From a virus, in the IMG/VR virus record IMGVR_UViG_3300046534_001301, positions 1 through 23,914 of that record: a stretch of DNA of 23,914 nt. The stretch is one strand, 5' to 3'. Made by a program: the position numbers and the translations under genes. This document shows, in pieces, positions 11,643-23,333 of this stretch. Position 1 is the first letter of the stretch. Every line of letters starts with the position of its first letter. A model generated the notes under the pieces. That model searched no databases and was not told where the DNA came from. It saw only the letters and a program-made list of their open reading frames with translations.

Positions 11643-12749
11643 ATGACTAGTATCGGATTATTTCGGCGGGTTGTGCCTTCGGAAAGCAGCTATCTTTTCG
11701 AAGCTATCGCGGTTCCTTTGAATTATAGCGCCACTTGCACCTTTACCAGTGATGAAGCATTCGAGGTTGATTGGGGTGATGGGACTTTCATATCCTATTC
11801 GGCGGGTTCTGCATCAGTCGTGCCGAGCGGCTCTATCAATATCAGAAGTGATAACTCGGTCACGATTTGCCGGTTTAATACTGATACATACAGCTCGATA
11901 AACATAACTGAAAGCTCTACTCTAACCAGCGGCGCTTACTTATGCGCGTTTCTATCTAATTTAACCTCGTTTGCTATCGATGATGCTAGCAACATCACTA
12001 ATTTTAATTTTGCTTTTGCTCTCTGCTCAGGTTTAACCAGCTTTCCAGTCATTGATACTAGCTCAGTTACTACCTTGCAAGTTACATTCTATTTGTGTTC
12101 AAGCCTAACCAGCTTTCCAGTCATTGATACTAGCTCAGTTACCCACTTTGGCGGTACCTGGAACGGTTGCGAAAACCTAACCAGTTTCCCAGTAATTGAT
12201 ACTAGCTCAGGACTTATTTTTACTAGTAGTTGGAAGGATTGCGAAAACCTAACTAGCTTTCCTTTACTAAATACCAGCTCAGGAACTAACTTTTCAACCT
12301 CTTGGGAGGGCTGTTCAGGTCTCACCAGTTTTCCGCTAATTAATACAAGCTCAGGAACAGACTTCGTGAGGACTTGGGAGAACTGCACAAGCCTTACGAG
12401 TTTCCCAGTAATCGATACAAGTTCCGGTGTTGAGTTTAGACAGTCATTTAATCAATGCACAAGCCTGACTAGTTTCCCAAGTCTGGATTATTCGGCGGCT
12501 GAAGATATGGAAACGATGTTTGGTGCCTGTACCTCATTAGTAACAGCGGGTCATTTTGAAACATCTAACGTCAGGGATTTTGAAGATATGTTTAATGGCT
12601 GTAGCGCGCTAGAATCAATTGCATCAATCAATACAACAAGATCGGGCGCAAATAAGATAGACATGTTTGAATCAACTGGTTCATTAACCTCCCCTAATGC
12701 ATCCGAGCGCGGTTTATTAAAAAGCTCTAGTGGTTACGATTTTAATTAA
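11643..12749 (+). CDS. BspA/DUF285-like leucine-rich repeat protein, candidate tail fibre or receptor-binding protein
   Basis: A 368-residue protein in the place where siphophages carry their fibre gene. Residues about 25-60 contain FEVDWGDGTF, the PKD-like opening common in proteins with DUF285 repeats. From about residue 107 come nine tandem 24-residue units with the pattern LTSFPxxDTSSxxxxxxxWxxCxx, each with a Cys near position 22. This is the BspA-type LRR. The final about 45 residues break the pattern. No signal peptide is present, which argues against a host surface protein and for a virion part. No good ribosome-binding site precedes the ATG. Alternatively it could be an accessory gene. 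The LRR call is firm, the fibre role is inference. Confidence 0.8.
   Translation: MTSIGLFRRVVPSESSYLFEAIAVPLNYSATCTFTSDEAFEVDWGDGTFISYSAGSASVVPSGSINIRSDNSVTICRFNTDTYSSINITESSTLTSGAYLCAFLSNLTSFAIDDASNITNFNFAFALCSGLTSFPVIDTSSVTTLQVTFYLCSSLTSFPVIDTSSVTHFGGTWNGCENLTSFPVIDTSSGLIFTSSWKDCENLTSFPLLNTSSGTNFSTSWEGCSGLTSFPLINTSSGTDFVRTWENCTSLTSFPVIDTSSGVEFRQSFNQCTSLTSFPSLDYSAAEDMETMFGACTSLVTAGHFETSNVRDFEDMFNGCSALESIASINTTRSGANKIDMFESTGSLTSPNASERGLLKSSSGYDFN
11961..12608 (+). repeat. nine tandem 72-bp repeats encoding the LRR units
   Basis: Units begin at 11961, 12033, 12105, 12177, 12249, 12321, 12393, 12465 and 12537, each 72 bp. Units 2 and 3 share a 37-base exact run (12034-12070 and 12106-12142). 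Outer units are more diverged, so the array has probably grown in the middle by recent duplication. Confidence 0.9.
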
Positions 12750-17468: not shown

Positions 17469-17980
17469 CAGATAGCCATCGTCTTTATCAAATCGACATT
17501 TTCGGGTGAGATAGTGACGTGCTTTAATACGATGTCGAGGTTGCCATTTGCCTTGTACGCTGCAACCGCTCTCAGCCACTTTTCTTTATCGGTTGGTGTT
17601 AGTTCTGGTTTTTGTAATACGGGCGGTATGCGGCTAATGCGTAAGCCCTCGACGGTATCTCGACCAAACTTAACGTTGGTATCAACATAAATATTCACAG
17701 GCACATTGTTCCAATCATCAATGAAGTGTGAACCAACCAAATCTTTGACTGACGTTGAATTAAACGCGTTAAGTATCATTGGTTTTAGTTTTTCACCCGG
17801 CCTTATTTCAGCTTCAGCAAAATGAGCCGTGTTAAATAGATCCTTGGTTTTCTTCGTTTGGTCCAGTTCAAGCCGTACGTATTTAATCGTTAATACGGTT
17901 GGCTCTACAATGTCAGCACTCGATAAGTACGGGCTGTTGAAAGCCTTTCTATAATGCGTTTTCTCAATTACTGCGCTCAT
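17468..17980 (-). CDS. recombination-associated protein, probable OB-fold ssDNA-binding type
   Basis: A 170-residue protein upstream of and coupled to the exonuclease. The segment KPMILNAFNSTSVKDLVGSHFIDDWNNVPVNIYV (about residues 66-99), then FGRDTVEGLRIS, resembles conserved phage proteins with the pattern LN.TN...I..L.G.....W.G..V.LY....V..FG...D.IRI, widely found beside YqaJ nucleases and probably OB-fold. No RecT or Bet gene is visible, so this may bind ssDNA or aid annealing. The ATG at 17980 overlaps the upstream stop (TAATG) and uses the GGTGAAGG of that gene's end as ribosome-binding site. The role is inferred. Confidence 0.72.
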   Translation of the reverse strand: MSAVIEKTHYRKAFNSPYLSSADIVEPTVLTIKYVRLELDQTKKTKDLFNTAHFAEAEIRPGEKLKPMILNAFNSTSVKDLVGSHFIDDWNNVPVNIYVDTNVKFGRDTVEGLRISRIPPVLQKPELTPTDKEKWLRAVAAYKANGNLDIVLKHVTISPENVDLIKTMAI

Positions 17981-18297
17981 TATCCTTCACCCTTTTCTGT
18001 TGTTGTCAGTCTGCGGTATGTGTCCCATGTGTAAAGCTCGCCATTAACCGGGCATCTAGTTACAACCTGACCATTTTCATCGAATTTTTCGAAGCGCTGC
18101 CAATCTTCAATCTCGTTATCTTTTTTACCAACGTCTTCAACCAATATTAACTCTCCAAATTTCGGCCGGCTTGGAAACAGTTCGCTTAACAATTCTTGAT
18201 AATTGATGTGAATACAACATGAGCCCATTGCCTTCTCGTTTGTTAAGCGTCTAGCCAGTAGCGCTTGTTTCAATACTTCTTCGGTGACCGCTCTCAT
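17980..18297 (-). CDS. tandem paralogue A, hypothetical phage protein
   Basis: A 105-residue protein, the most downstream of four related genes. It shares with the others a helical start (AVTEEVLKQALL), a middle ELFPSRPKFGEL, an F-x-x-x-D-x-x-G turn, and the end TYRRLTTTEKGEG. In it, K-G-E-G-stop doubles as the ribosome-binding site of the next gene. Function unknown. It is separated from paralogue B by a 44-residue membrane-protein gene that has been placed between them. Its stop overlaps the start of the recombination protein. Confidence 0.7.
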   Translation of the reverse strand: MRAVTEEVLKQALLARRLTNEKAMGSCCIHINYQELLSELFPSRPKFGELILVEDVGKKDNEIEDWQRFEKFDENGQVVTRCPVNGELYTWDTYRRLTTTEKGEG

Positions 18298-18428
18298 TCT
18301 AAAATCTCCCTCAAATCGTTTGTTGTCAGCACTATGATGATCAGTAAAGCAATGCCGGTTAAATTGGCGCCAATGTTTTCAGTACCTAGCGCGAGTAAGA
18401 AAGCAACGCATAGAGTTAGGTTAATCAT
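18294..18428 (-). CDS. small membrane protein
   Basis: A 44-residue protein: MINLTLCVAFLLALGTENIG, then NLTGIALLIIIVLTT and a short charged end. The two hydrophobic stretches would make one long or two short membrane spans. ATG at 18428 overlaps the upstream stop (TAATG), and its own stop overlaps the next start (ATGA). Translation is therefore tightly coupled on both sides, which supports a real gene despite its size. Function unknown. A small inner-membrane protein in an early operon could affect host envelope or superinfection, but nothing shows this. Confidence 0.68.
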   Translation of the reverse strand: MINLTLCVAFLLALGTENIGANLTGIALLIIIVLTTNDLREILE

Positions 18429-18721
18429 TACCCTTCACCCTTTTCGGCAGGTGTCTGGCGCCTGAAGTTTTCCCATTCGCAGTAATCCCCATATTCACCT
18501 TTAGTTAATATGTTACCGTCAGCGTCAAGGCTGAAAAATTTACGCCATGCTCCCTCATCAGTAGCGCCGTTGCCGTTCCACACCCAAATAAGCTCTCCCC
18601 CCTTTGGCAGCTCTGGGAATAGCTCATCAAAAACATTGCTAGAGTAAAAGGCATCATGCCTTGAACTATGCTTATTCATTGCGGCGATAACTTCCGCCTC
18701 TGTTACTGTTCGTTCGCTCAC
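18428..18721 (-). CDS. tandem paralogue B, hypothetical phage protein (GTG start)
   Basis: A 97-residue protein from GTG at 18721: SERTVTEAEVIAAMNKH, then LFPELPKGGELIWV, FFSLDADGNIL, and WENFRRQTPAEKGEG. The same skeleton recurs in A, C and D. The GTG is 7 bases after AAAGGAG, which is formed by the last codons of paralogue C, so I choose it over an in-frame ATG further upstream inside C. The C-terminal Q-T-P-x-x-K-G-E motif is familiar from small phage proteins of unknown function. Confidence 0.72.
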   Translation of the reverse strand: MSERTVTEAEVIAAMNKHSSRHDAFYSSNVFDELFPELPKGGELIWVWNGNGATDEGAWRKFFSLDADGNILTKGEYGDYCEWENFRRQTPAEKGEG

Positions 18722-18750
18722 GGCTATTCTCCTTTCTGCGTGGGGGTTTG
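18719..18750 (-). repeat. 32-bp boundary repeat, copy 1
   Basis: This is identical to 18988-19019. It contains on the - strand the end codons T-Q-K-G-E-stop, the ribosome-binding site AAAGGAG and the GTG start of the next gene. It joins paralogues C and B. Confidence 0.93.
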
Positions 18751-18990
18751 GCGTCTGTAGTGTTTCCATCCAACAAGACTTGCAGGACCAACAAAAACAC
18801 GACCTTCATTATCAATGTGATGAAATGGCCGCCAGTTGCCGTATGGCATAGGGGCCAAAGTATCACTTACATCAACAAGCTCCCCCGGCTTTGGCAGCTC
18901 TGGGAATAGCGAACTGACAGTATCCTTAAATGATAAGCGCTTTTTCAGTGCATCGATTACTTGCTGCTCTGTTACTGTTCGCTCGGTCAC
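18724..18990 (-). CDS. tandem paralogue C, hypothetical phage protein (GTG start)
   Basis: An 88-residue protein from GTG at 18990: TERTVTEQQVIDALKKRL, LFPELPKPGELVDV, FHHIDNEGRVFVG, and WKHYRRQTPTQKGE. It is closest to paralogue B; the two genes share the 32-base boundary repeat and a 20-base exact run coding the LPELFPE-side region. It lies 2 bases after the stop of D. No catalytic motif, signal peptide or membrane segment. Function unknown. Such tandem copies suggest dosage or diversification, as seen in anti-host or anti-defence protein families. Confidence 0.72.
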   Translation of the reverse strand: MTERTVTEQQVIDALKKRLSFKDTVSSLFPELPKPGELVDVSDTLAPMPYGNWRPFHHIDNEGRVFVGPASLVGWKHYRRQTPTQKGE

Positions 18991-19019
18991 GGCTATTCTC
19001 CTTTCTGCGTGGGGGTTTG
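18988..19019 (-). repeat. 32-bp boundary repeat, copy 2
   Basis: This is identical to 18719-18750. It carries the end codons of paralogue D, the ribosome-binding site and the GTG start of paralogue C. Confidence 0.93.
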
Positions 19020-19295
19020 TGGTTTGGCGTACATAAAACAAACGGTAGTGGTGTTTTCAACACTTCCGTTCATAAAACATACGTACTCACTATCATCGTT
19101 TATATAGCAAAAAACTCTAATTTTTGGATTTTTAAAGCTTTCGTGTTGACTAACTACAATAGCCTCCCCCTCTTTAGGCTTGAAAATGGGCGGGAATGCC
19201 ATTTCTAGTATTACGCCAAAGATAGGAAGGTTAGTTATTGATGCGTGAGTTAAAATGGATTTCAGTTTTTCTTCATTAATGGTTCGCTCGCTCAT
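18993..19295 (-). CDS. tandem paralogue D, hypothetical phage protein
   Basis: A 100-residue protein starting MSERTINEEKLKSIL, ending AKPQTPTQKGE. Start and end match paralogues B and C, but the centre (FPPIFKPKEGEAIVV...CYINDDSEYVCFMNG) is diverged and contains several Cys and Phe residues. The ATG at 19295 follows AGGAG by 8 bases, and this ribosome-binding site is in the last codons of the upstream gene (Q-E-R-I-K-stop). It is the first gene of the four-member array. Function unknown. Confidence 0.72.
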   Translation of the reverse strand: MSERTINEEKLKSILTHASITNLPIFGVILEMAFPPIFKPKEGEAIVVSQHESFKNPKIRVFCYINDDSEYVCFMNGSVENTTTVCFMYAKPQTPTQKGE

Positions 19296-20357: not shown

Positions 20358-20582
20358 CTATCTATATGTTGCTCTACTGACTGATAGATCTTTATGTTTT
20401 ACGTCACCACTTCTCCGGCCGCCTCCTGATTTCCTTTTATCGGTTTGATCACGTTGGTCGGGCTGGTCGGGCTGGTCGGGCTGATCGGGCTGATCGGGCT
20501 GATCGGGCTGAGACTCTCTTTCTTTGATAGCCTTTGTCAATTCTTTTAATAGCAATTTTGTCGTAATATGTATCGGCACCAC
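20358..20582 (-). CDS. small proline/aspartate-repeat protein with basic tail
   Basis: About 74 residues if started at GTG 20582, which lies 5 bases after CGGAG. An alternative TTG at 20606 overlaps the repressor stop but lacks a ribosome-binding site. The N-terminal helix (ITTKLLLKELTKAIKERES) is followed by six Q-P-D units, then a basic tail (KRKSGGGRRSGDVKHK) with an arginine-rich look that could bind RNA or DNA. It lies between repressor and terminator, so it is expressed in lysogens. Not recognised; possibly a lysogeny-expressed regulator or exclusion protein, but that is speculation. Confidence 0.6.
   Translation of the reverse strand: MVPIHITTKLLLKELTKAIKERESQPDQPDQPDQPDQPDQPDQRDQTDKRKSGGGRRSGDVKHKDLSVSRATYR
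20456..20509 (-). repeat. six tandem 9-bp repeats
   Basis: Six copies of 9 bp (GGTCGGGCT three times, GATCGGGCT three times) from 20456 to 20509. They code for Q-P-D units on the - strand. The length is a multiple of three, so copy-number change would keep the reading frame. Confidence 0.92.
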
Positions 20583-20598
20583 TAAAACTCCGTTTTTT

Positions 20599-21030
20599 CT
20601 AAGCAACTAAATTTAGTAAGGGTATCACGCCCAACCGTCTCATCTCCTCATTATACCAAGCTTTATAAAGTATCTTAAAAGCCTTTTTCCGCCACTCTGC
20701 ATCCGCCATTGTCTTTGGGTATTCTTTGGAATATTCAATTATTCCTAATACCGCAAAGTCTAGCGCCTCCTCGTTCCATTCATCATATAGGTGATTTTTT
20801 GGACAGGTTAGTTCATTAGGTTGGTCTACCTCCTTACTAATAAGCCAGTCAATACCAAGGATTTCAGCAATCGCTGGCTTTAGATTACCGGGTACCTTGC
20901 CTCGTTTAATCCAATGGTTGAGTGTTTGAGCATTCGGTAAGCCAATTGCAAAGGCTAGTTGTCGCTTTGACTTATAAAGCACCAAGCCTTTTTCTAGTAG
21001 CTGCTCAATAAATTCATTGTCATTAATCAT
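20599..21030 (-). CDS. lysogeny repressor, CI-like without visible protease domain
   Basis: A 143-residue protein divergent from the Cro-like gene, with the two operator regions on either side of the repressor operon. Residues about 20-60 form a helix-turn-helix (KSKRQLAFAIGLPNAQTLNHWIKRGKVPG) followed by I-A-E-I-L-G-I, as in phage repressors. The C-terminus is helical (LDFAVLGIIEYSKEYP, then AFKILYKAWYN) and shows no A-G self-cleavage site or S24 peptidase Ser/Lys pair. Induction may therefore not use RecA-stimulated self-cleavage. The ribosome-binding site is weak. The assignment is by HTH and context. Confidence 0.82.
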   Translation of the reverse strand: MINDNEFIEQLLEKGLVLYKSKRQLAFAIGLPNAQTLNHWIKRGKVPGNLKPAIAEILGIDWLISKEVDQPNELTCPKNHLYDEWNEEALDFAVLGIIEYSKEYPKTMADAEWRKKAFKILYKAWYNEEMRRLGVIPLLNLVA

Positions 21031-21112: not shown

Positions 21113-21352
21113 ATGAAAATATTAATAACACTGACGCCACTTGAAAGAGCCATTGAATTTTTTGGCGGCAATCAAGCTGCATTGGCGCGTGCCATTGATC
21201 CACTCGCTTCAACCATGATCGTTACCCACTGGAAAAAAAGAGGGGTACCACCTTGCCGTTATCATCAGATACAGCAAGCGTGCAATGGCACTGTAACGAC
21301 TGAAGATTTTTATTTTCACGCGAAAGAATCACCCTCTTTAACAACAACATGA
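21113..21352 (+). CDS. Cro-like / YdaS-type transcriptional regulator
   Basis: A 79-residue protein with a compact HTH: TPLERAIEFFGGNQAALARAI, then THWKKRGVPPCRYHQIQQACNG. This matches the small Cro/YdaS-type phage regulators that begin LTPLERAIE.FG.Q..LA. It is divergent from the repressor and first in the rightward operon, so it should favour lytic growth by turning down the repressor. There is no Shine-Dalgarno before ATG 21113, and the predicted transcript begins at or beside the ATG, which suggests leaderless translation. A terminator follows it. Confidence 0.85.
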   Translation: MKILITLTPLERAIEFFGGNQAALARAIDPLASTMIVTHWKKRGVPPCRYHQIQQACNGTVTTEDFYFHAKESPSLTTT

Positions 21353-21967: not shown

Positions 21968-22780
21968 GTGGATAACCCTCAATTTATCTTTATGCCATAC
22001 GAAATACTCATCGACGACCGTCTAACTTTAAGACAGCTAAAAGTCTTAATGGCGATCTGTTCATGGCGTAAAAGTAACACCAATATATCGCGTGTTAGCA
22101 GAAAAATACTATCAGAAAAAACAGGGATTAGAGAAACAAGAATCTCCACAGTAACAACCGAATTATCAAAATTGGGATGGCTGGAAAAGAAAGGAAATGG
22201 CGGGAAATCTCAATGGATTGAATACACCCTAACGGTGCCCGAATTGGGTACGGTACCCGAATTGGGTACGGTACCCAGTTTGGGTTCAAAGGGTACCCGA
22301 ATTGGGTCACAAACGGTACCCGAATCAGGTACACCCATAGTTACAGTTACTAATACAGTTACTAATACAGTTACTAATACAGTTACTAAAAGCGAATCAC
22401 ATGTAAAAGCATTTAAGTCTTTTAATCTTCAGCATAAGGAAGCACTGAAGATGAACATCGAATTTGATAAATGGGTTTTGCCTTTATGGGTCAGCCCTTC
22501 GGCCTGGGCTGAGTTTGAACAGCATCGCTCGACGGTTAAGAAAAAGGACTGGTCGGACCTTGCCAGAACTAAGGCGGCAAACGTCTTAAAAGGCTTCACT
22601 TTTGAAGAGCAGCAAACCGCAGTCAATATCTCAATTATGAGCGGCTACCCAGGTCTTTATCCCAAAAAAGCAAACGGAGTAAGCAATGCAAACAATAGCG
22701 GGGCTAATGCCCGTAGTAAATCAGGACACGCCAATATCCTCCAGCACCTTAAACGTCAAAGCCAGTCAGCCGGAGGATAA
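21968..22780 (+). CDS. replication initiator, lambda O-like, with internal origin
   Basis: A 270-residue protein from GTG 21968. It opens FIFMPYEILIDDRLTLRQLKVLMAI, then a winged-helix DNA-binding part with ETRISTVTTELSKLGWLEKKGNGG, the pattern of phage replication proteins of the O type. Residues about 88-140 are low in complexity (VPELGT units, then TVTN units) because the DNA there holds origin iterons and AT-rich repeats. The C-terminal part should contact the P-like helicase loader. GTG has only a weak ribosome-binding site but follows the upstream stop by 5 bases; ATG 21992 is a less likely start. It overlaps the P-like gene by 95 bases. Confidence 0.85.
   Translation: MDNPQFIFMPYEILIDDRLTLRQLKVLMAICSWRKSNTNISRVSRKILSEKTGIRETRISTVTTELSKLGWLEKKGNGGKSQWIEYTLTVPELGTVPELGTVPSLGSKGTRIGSQTVPESGTPIVTVTNTVTNTVTNTVTKSESHVKAFKSFNLQHKEALKMNIEFDKWVLPLWVSPSAWAEFEQHRSTVKKKDWSDLARTKAANVLKGFTFEEQQTAVNISIMSGYPGLYPKKANGVSNANNSGANARSKSGHANILQHLKRQSQSAGG
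22232..22330 (+). repeat. ori: five 18-bp iterons: replication origin inside the initiator gene
   Basis: Consensus ACGGTACCCGAATTGGGT at 22232, 22250, 22268, 22290 and 22313, each 18 bp. The first three are contiguous, the last two have 4- and 5-base spacers. Each unit has inverted arms ACCC and GGGT separated by 5 bases (degenerate in unit 5), as lambda O iterons do with their own arms. The place within an O-like gene matches lambda ori. Confidence 0.85.
22343..22390 (+). repeat. four 12-bp AT-rich repeats, probable DNA unwinding element
   Basis: Four copies of ACAGTTACTAAT (the last ends AAA) in tandem, 75 percent A+T, starting 12 bases after the iterons. In lambda an A+T-rich segment beside the iterons melts first. 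These repeats encode T-V-T-N units. Confidence 0.78.
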
Positions 22781-23333
22781 TATTGTGTATTTATTTTCTG
22801 AACTAGCTATCAAGTATGCCCACAAGTTCACCTCAGTTTTTGGTGATGACGAAGACGTGTTGCACGCCACTCAAAACGAATGGGCTAAATCACTAGGCGG
22901 CATACCTAACGCGCAACTGAGGCAGGGCGTTGATGCCTGTATCGATCAATACCCCTCATGGCCGCCAACGGTCGGAGAGTTTAAACAGCTTTGCAAACTA
23001 AGCGCAAAAGCCTTGGGCGTGCCTACAGTCGAAGCGGCGTGGTTGGAGGTGTCAAGCACAGCAATGACCGTTAATTTCAGTCACGGCATAGTGCTGGCAG
23101 TGAGAAACGACCCACGCTGTATGACATTCGAATGGCGGCTATTACCTTTCGCTAAAGGCTTGAAATTGTTTGATCTAATTTACTCAGATTATCTAGCTAG
23201 AGTCGCAGACGGTGAAGTCTTTATTTTACTCCCCGCAATTGAAAATAAGGTAGGCAAGCCAGTTACCAAAAGCGAACGATTAGCCGCATCAAATAAATGG
23301 ATGGATCAACTCAAGGGAGCAATAGCACGATGA
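22686..23333 (+). CDS. replication protein P-like helicase loader
   Basis: A 215-residue protein whose N-terminus (MQTIAGLMP...), LFSELAIKYAHKF and QYPSWPPTVGEFKQLCK (about residues 88-104) follow the lambda P pattern. P recruits host DnaB helicase to the O-bound origin. CGGAG lies 6 bases before ATG 22686, which supports this start even though it falls 95 bases inside the O-like gene in another frame. Later starts would lose the N-terminal helix. The C-terminus is helical. Its stop overlaps the next possible start (ATGA at 23330-23333). Confidence 0.78.
   Translation: MQTIAGLMPVVNQDTPISSSTLNVKASQPEDNIVYLFSELAIKYAHKFTSVFGDDEDVLHATQNEWAKSLGGIPNAQLRQGVDACIDQYPSWPPTVGEFKQLCKLSAKALGVPTVEAAWLEVSSTAMTVNFSHGIVLAVRNDPRCMTFEWRLLPFAKGLKLFDLIYSDYLARVADGEVFILLPAIENKVGKPVTKSERLAASNKWMDQLKGAIAR

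Follow-up and report, generated by a model that had tools for sequence, protein, structure and literature searches.

A probable lambda-type replication origin with an in-frame 12-bp tandem array inside the O-like initiator gene of a temperate phage

The virus DNA analyzed here (IMGVR_UViG_3300046534_001301; the whole stretch of 23,914 bp is referred to as the window) is from a temperate phage whose replication module is of the lambda type. The terminase is ~50% identical to terminases of ST64B-like, Klebsiella and Vibrio phages. The replication region is near the right end of the record. A weakly repressor-like gene (20599-21030, minus strand) lies opposite a YdaS/Cro-like gene (21113-21352, plus strand) that is in the cro position and matches the YdaS family just above the Pfam cut-off. 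No cII match was found among the window's genes with Pfam and PHROG profiles, and a promoter scan did no better than with shuffled sequences.

We found an O-like replication initiator gene at 21968-22780 (plus strand; GTG start, 270 aa, no clear ribosome-binding site). Its product matched phrog_678 ("replication initiation O-like") with an E value of 2.5e-22, and PHROG matches to other initiator families were weaker. A profile made from four O proteins aligned with residues 12-243 (hhalign 97.6%, E 3.5e-12). Full-length matches to annotated phage O proteins were 24-29% identical (best E 7e-4). The score for Pfam PF04492 (Phage_rep_O) was below the curated cut-off (18.1 vs 28.7 bits), and there was no Pfam match to a RepA_N domain at E 0.1. 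No close relatives of the gene were found by pattern search of viral and genome contigs, by tblastn against phages (E 1e-5), or by DNA similarity.

An AlphaFold model of the O-like protein was made with an alignment of 19 sequences; a run on the sequence alone had been uninformative (pLDDT 33.7). The model has a winged helix (pLDDT ~90), a linker that carries the putative origin, and a helical C-terminal domain (pLDDT ~85). Residues 98-143 are without structure (pLDDT ~40). The winged helix aligned with two initiator structures, 4pql (Z 9.4) and 4pt7 (Z 9.2), and with DnaD (Z 8.7). However, LexA and other winged helices scored as high, so the fold alone is unspecific. A sequence search of the PDB with the protein gave no matches, and a Foldseek search of the PDB with the model gave only generic winged-helix matches (best E 0.02).

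The gene next downstream (22686-23333, plus strand) encodes a P-type, lambda-P-like helicase loader. It matched PF06992 with 29.3 bits (cut-off 26) and phrog_109 with an E value of 2e-15. This gene has two candidate starts: an ATG at 22686, which gives a 95-bp overlap with the O-like gene, and a GTG at 22785, directly past the O-like stop codon and preceded by CGGAGGA. The O-like, P-like, terminase and integrase genes are all intact open frames, and the latter three passed curated cut-offs.

The O-like gene contains five dyad iterons, located mid-gene at ~270 bp into the reading frame. They have a dyad core of 17 bp (6 + 5 + 6, that is, 6-bp arms around 5 bp), as in the best dyad, iteron 2 (GTACCCGAATTGGGTAC; 22253-22269). 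The others are iteron 1 (GTGCCCGAATTGGGTAC; 22235-22251), iteron 3 (GTACCCAGTTTGGGTTC; 22271-22287), iteron 4 (GTACCCGAATTGGGTCA; 22293-22309), and iteron 5 (GTACCCGAATCAGGTAC; 22316-22332), all given on the plus strand. A preliminary description of this DNA had the count of five right and put the length at 18 bp, close to the 17 bp of the core. A repeat finder reported a 21-nt unit five times, at 22231, 22249, 22267, 22289, and 22312 (spacings of 18, 18, 22, and 23). A dyad scan found at most two copies in 40 dinucleotide and 40 codon shuffles of the gene, compared to the five observed. The best score was 33 in the dinucleotide shuffles and 30 in the codon shuffles, vs 73 observed. Because no shuffle had more than two dyads, chance is excluded as an explanation for five iterons. 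The exact iteron 24-mer was absent from the viral contigs searched.

Four of the five iterons share one reading frame. Iterons 1 and 2 encode VPELGT, iteron 3 encodes VPSLGS, and iteron 5 encodes VPESGT. Iteron 4 is read in a different codon frame and encodes GTRIGS, yet its first 15 bases are equal to those of iteron 2. Because iteron 4 keeps these bases in another frame, it is the DNA that is conserved and not the peptide. The earlier proposal that DNA function dominates coding here is supported by iteron 4 and by the position of the region in the predicted disordered linker. The iterons encode residues 90-122 and the 12-bp array described below encodes residues 125-141, so the putative origin fills this linker. 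Based on the model, the origin DNA is predicted to code for the linker between two folded domains.

Nine bp past the last iteron are four perfect 12-bp repeats of TACAGTTACTAA (22342-22389, plus strand), a probable unwinding element that encodes TVTN repeats. Tandem Repeats Finder reported 4.0 copies with 100% match, in agreement with the four AT-rich 12-bp repeats originally noted. The GC content of the array is 25%, compared to 43% for the window and 26% for the lambda AT region. The array is within the least stable 0.2% of the window's 50-bp stretches, calculated from nearest-neighbour energy. The array is followed by an AT-rich extension (22390-22432, plus strand; 30% GC) that may belong to the melting region. 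The same 12-mer array was not found in other phages or initiators in the collections searched, where the 12-mer occurred in unrelated proteins only. No relative close enough to compare conservation of the array was found among viral and genome contigs, among phages, or by DNA similarity.

We compared this region to those of lambda-type O genes. Starting from four O proteins, we collected 160 relatives in genome and viral contigs, added annotated O genes, and reduced the set to 132 genes besides that of the window. The queries were lambda-type proteins, so the set covers their kin rather than the closer kin of the window. At least three dyad iterons were present in 127 of the 132 genes, with 3-9 copies and mostly four (45 genes) or five (43 genes); these counts are not independent events because many of the genes are near-identical enterobacterial copies. 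Having five iterons instead of four had been taken as a distinguishing feature of the window. It is ordinary in this family (43/127), and Stx phages have six (PMC7466680). The last iteron spacing was 22-24 bp in nearly all relatives and is 23 bp in the window. Measured from where the last iteron ends, the least stable 45 bp started at -15 to +40 bp in 110 of the 128 genes, the window's included. The window shares the order found in its relatives: iterons, then the least stable segment right after.

The melting region itself is different. Repeats like CAAAAGACA followed the last iteron in 126 of the 127 relatives (one to four elements in the melting region, the sole exception being a truncated gene), and the window has none. 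An nhmmer profile of 84 lambda-type tails had no match anywhere in the O-like gene. With this result we rejected a hidden lambda-type melting element past the array, where two copies of TAAAAGC (22386-22412) had looked like such an element by eye.

Two other observations came from the surveyed genes. The O genes of loci L010-L089 have a similar N-terminal domain and origin and quite different C-terminal domains, as expected for exchange at the origin-carrying linker. A Klebsiella pneumoniae record of 4.6 kb (L379; NZ_CP080357.1, 1-4627), classified as a plasmid, consists of a lambdoid cI-cro-cII-O-dnaC-ren segment and nothing else, and in this resembles lambda dv. The record is linear. It could be an assembly fragment that was filed wrongly, or a natural mini-replicon that an in-gene origin drives.

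Lambda oriλ in gene O, together with the Stx phages, is among the closest known parallels. As in the window, there are dyad iterons mid-gene, an AT-rich melting region next, and a P-type gene after that (PMC7466680, PMC5043065). The iteron sequence is different, as had been proposed, and the window has four perfect 12-mers and no CAAAAGACA-type repeats. Lambda O also has an N-terminal leader that the window's O-like protein lacks. A melting region made of tandem repeats had been put forward as a further difference. Repeats in the lambda melting region are already described (PMC10797057), so being made of repeats does not separate the window from lambda. The kind of repeat does: those of lambda and its relatives have another motif and are not perfect tandems. 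Among the surveyed genes, the iterons nearest to the window's (TTACCCGAATCGGGTAA and TTACCCGAATCAGGTAA, 3-4 of 17 bases apart) are those of O genes of the Klebsiella phage GZ7 type (phrog_678). These genes share the C-terminal domain with the window, and five iterons are common among them. In contrast, protein identity is only ~29%, the melting region is lambda-type, and the loader of GZ7 is DnaC-type rather than P-type.

Origins inside initiator genes are also found outside of the lambda group. SPP1 oriL, compared here through the literature only, has direct repeats and an AT-rich unwinding region inside the initiator gene 38 (PMC6316719). In the staphylococcal plasmid pSK41, the origin is in rep, which has four Rep boxes mid-gene. 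Rep has the architecture predicted for the window's O-like protein: a winged helix, an origin-encoded linker, and a helical C-terminal domain. The linker of Rep can be removed (PMC5703833). Unlike the O-like protein, which has no RepA_N match, Rep is a plasmid initiator of the RepA_N family. RK2 oriV and E. coli oriC have AT-rich 13-mer repeats in a melting region beside the initiator sites (PMC10797057). These are analogies only, as neither origin is within an initiator gene.

We conclude that the site is very probably the origin of vegetative replication of this temperate phage, lambda-type and embedded in the O-like gene, as the preliminary description had suggested. The matches to phrog_678 and with hhalign, the P-like neighbour, and a layout like that of 127 relatives all support this conclusion, alongside the anatomy of the site, its location in the linker, its low duplex stability, and the conservation of iteron 4 at the level of DNA. 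Weighing against it are the 24-29% identity to O proteins, the Pfam score below cut-off, and the absence of the lambda-type melting element. We rate the origin as a divergent variant of the lambda oriλ, SPP1 oriL, and pSK41 ori kind in which the melting region was replaced. Because in-gene origins are textbook knowledge for lambda, this origin alone is no surprise.

By analogy with lambda, SPP1 and pSK41, the O-like protein, probably dimeric, would use its N-terminal winged helix to bind the five dyad iterons and would strain the adjacent DNA. With the DNA negatively supercoiled, the 12-bp array would melt. The P-like loader with the host DnaB helicase would then be received by the opened strands and by the C-terminal domain. 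In the lambda scheme, O binds the iterons, adjacent AT-rich DNA opens when supercoiled, and P brings DnaB (PMC5043065). The gene would tolerate the origin because no part of a folded domain, only the linker between the two, is encoded there.

Phages PfAn1 and Silvergun, which were reached via the P-like gene, pointed to (TD)n linkers. We found at least 120 stretches of (ATACAG)4 in viral contigs (loci L188-L307; e.g., L203:141-1073, L223:367-1125, and L243). Among the matches listed, 95 closed frames were 150 aa or longer; 92 of them read (TD)n, and the median position in the gene was 0.50. A second search covered all codings of (TD)4 so that codons were not preselected. In the 35 closed mid-gene cases among the 80 loci listed, ACA was used for 142 of 185 threonines in the array and for 134 of 500 elsewhere in the genes (Fisher p 3e-32). 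Similarly, GAT was used for 161 of 178 aspartates in the array and for 325 of 586 elsewhere (p 1e-19), and 30 of the 35 genes were biased in that direction. In contrast, (TD)n arrays in other proteins among the loci listed were unbiased relative to their own genes (ACA, 51/169; GAT, 82/164). Because use of ACA and GAT far exceeds that in the rest of the gene, the mid-gene (ATACAG)n arrays look constrained as DNA.

Length and position, rather than homology, were the criteria for the mid-gene (TD)n set. Many members have PHROG matches to a DnaD-like loader, a primosomal protein, or a replication initiation protein; in some, Pfam finds DUF1376, DnaT or Phage_rep_org_N. In the 90 bp upstream of the arrays, the top 6-mer was present in 3.1 copies, compared to 1.95 elsewhere in the gene (p 4e-12) and 1.88 in codon shuffles (p 4e-14). 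The DNA before these arrays is repeat-rich, as iterons would be.

The window's 12-mer contains ATACAG (ATACAGTTACTA), a likeness that need not mean common descent of its array and the (ATACAG)n arrays. Plasmid Rep proteins and DnaD read their repeats as single strands (PMC10797057, PMC10201434). We considered the DnaD single-strand motif TnnT as a shared code and rejected it. By inspection, TnnT is present on both strands of the 12-mer and missing from (ATACAG)n, which makes a single shared code unlikely.

We found that in-frame tandem arrays also recur in more distant initiators. The best chromosomal relatives of the O-like protein are two prophage initiators, L382 (G451) and L383 (G558), with matches of 34% over residues 4-138 and 42% over residues 167-245. 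Like the window, both have iterons followed by 12-bp in-frame arrays. Their iterons are their own, and their arrays differ from each other (GAAGTATCTAAC, 2.5 copies; GAACCTGTGAAG, 3.1 copies); the sequences of both elements are unrelated to those of the window. We then used phrog_678 and phrog_270 to find a wider set of 39 distinct initiators. A mid-gene tandem array with a period of 5-17 was present in 24 of the 39 (nine with period 12 and six with period 11); in some cases the array consists of the iterons, and AT-richness is not universal. In contrast, such arrays were found in only 3 of 23 other genes of the same loci and in 7 of 390 codon-shuffled copies.

These counts bear on a different reading of the window. 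In it, the origin still has the iterons as its binding sites, and the 12-mers arose in the disordered linker by slippage, as a neutral expansion. Melting would then work as well with any other AT-rich DNA there, 22390-22432 included. Four identical copies are what recent slippage would be expected to leave, the array sequence is unique among the collections searched, and the linker is disordered, with that of pSK41 dispensable as protein (PMC5703833). However, slippage at the level of protein does not explain the codon choice of the (ATACAG)n arrays, which is missing from (TD)n in other proteins, and arrays recur at this place in initiators far more often than in the control genes and shuffles. 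We consider this reading possible but unlikely.

The dyads might instead serve the initiator gene as an operator, either for autoregulation or to control copy number, with replication starting elsewhere. Iterons of iteron plasmids can also serve in copy-number control. Nevertheless, these dyads are mid-gene, ~270 bp inside the frame, and adjoin the least stable DNA, as in lambda and 127 relatives, and we regard an operator as very improbable. Least probable, and only barely credible, is that the record is part of a decayed prophage with its origin out of use: the 23.9-kb record may be incomplete and the O-like gene has no clear ribosome-binding site, but the four frames named above are intact, three of them scoring above curated cut-offs.

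The recurrence of in-frame tandem arrays mid-gene in phage initiators is a more interesting result than the single origin. We think there is about an even chance that the 12-mer array represents a kind of element that is general and apparently undescribed. Such an element would be made of short tandem repeats, in frame and directly after mid-gene iterons, in phage initiators of several families (O-like, DnaD-like, and DnaT/DUF1376-like), serving as a coding-embedded site for unwinding or strand loading. It would change fast in sequence but persist in position and, in many cases, in period (6 or 11-12 bp). We found no paper on ATACAG or TDTD arrays in phage initiators in the open literature, to which the search was confined. 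Part of this topic may be covered in the review "Bacteriophage replication modules" (Weigel and Seitz 2006). A usable rule follows: in phage initiator genes, look for iterons and then for a low-complexity in-frame array in the linker. This rule would locate origins in many phage and prophage genomes without annotated ones. It also raises the question of whether the array is read as single-stranded DNA by the initiator or loader or just lowers the melting energy.

Repeats are present in other parts of the window. A 9-bp repeat in six copies (20458-20511, minus strand) encodes QPD repeats in an open reading frame (20358-20606, minus strand) that adjoins the repressor-like gene. Four small adjacent open reading frames (17980-19295, minus strand) look like diverged tandem copies of each other, with ends like QTPTQKGE or TTTEKGEG and starts like ERTVTEQQVIDAL. 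Directly after the tail genes, a gene at 11643-12749 (plus strand) encodes a 368-aa protein made of ~24-aa repeats of the LTSFPVIDTSSG type, and within it the DNA has a 72-bp tandem repeat (12034-12262). This protein may be a host-binding or variable surface protein.
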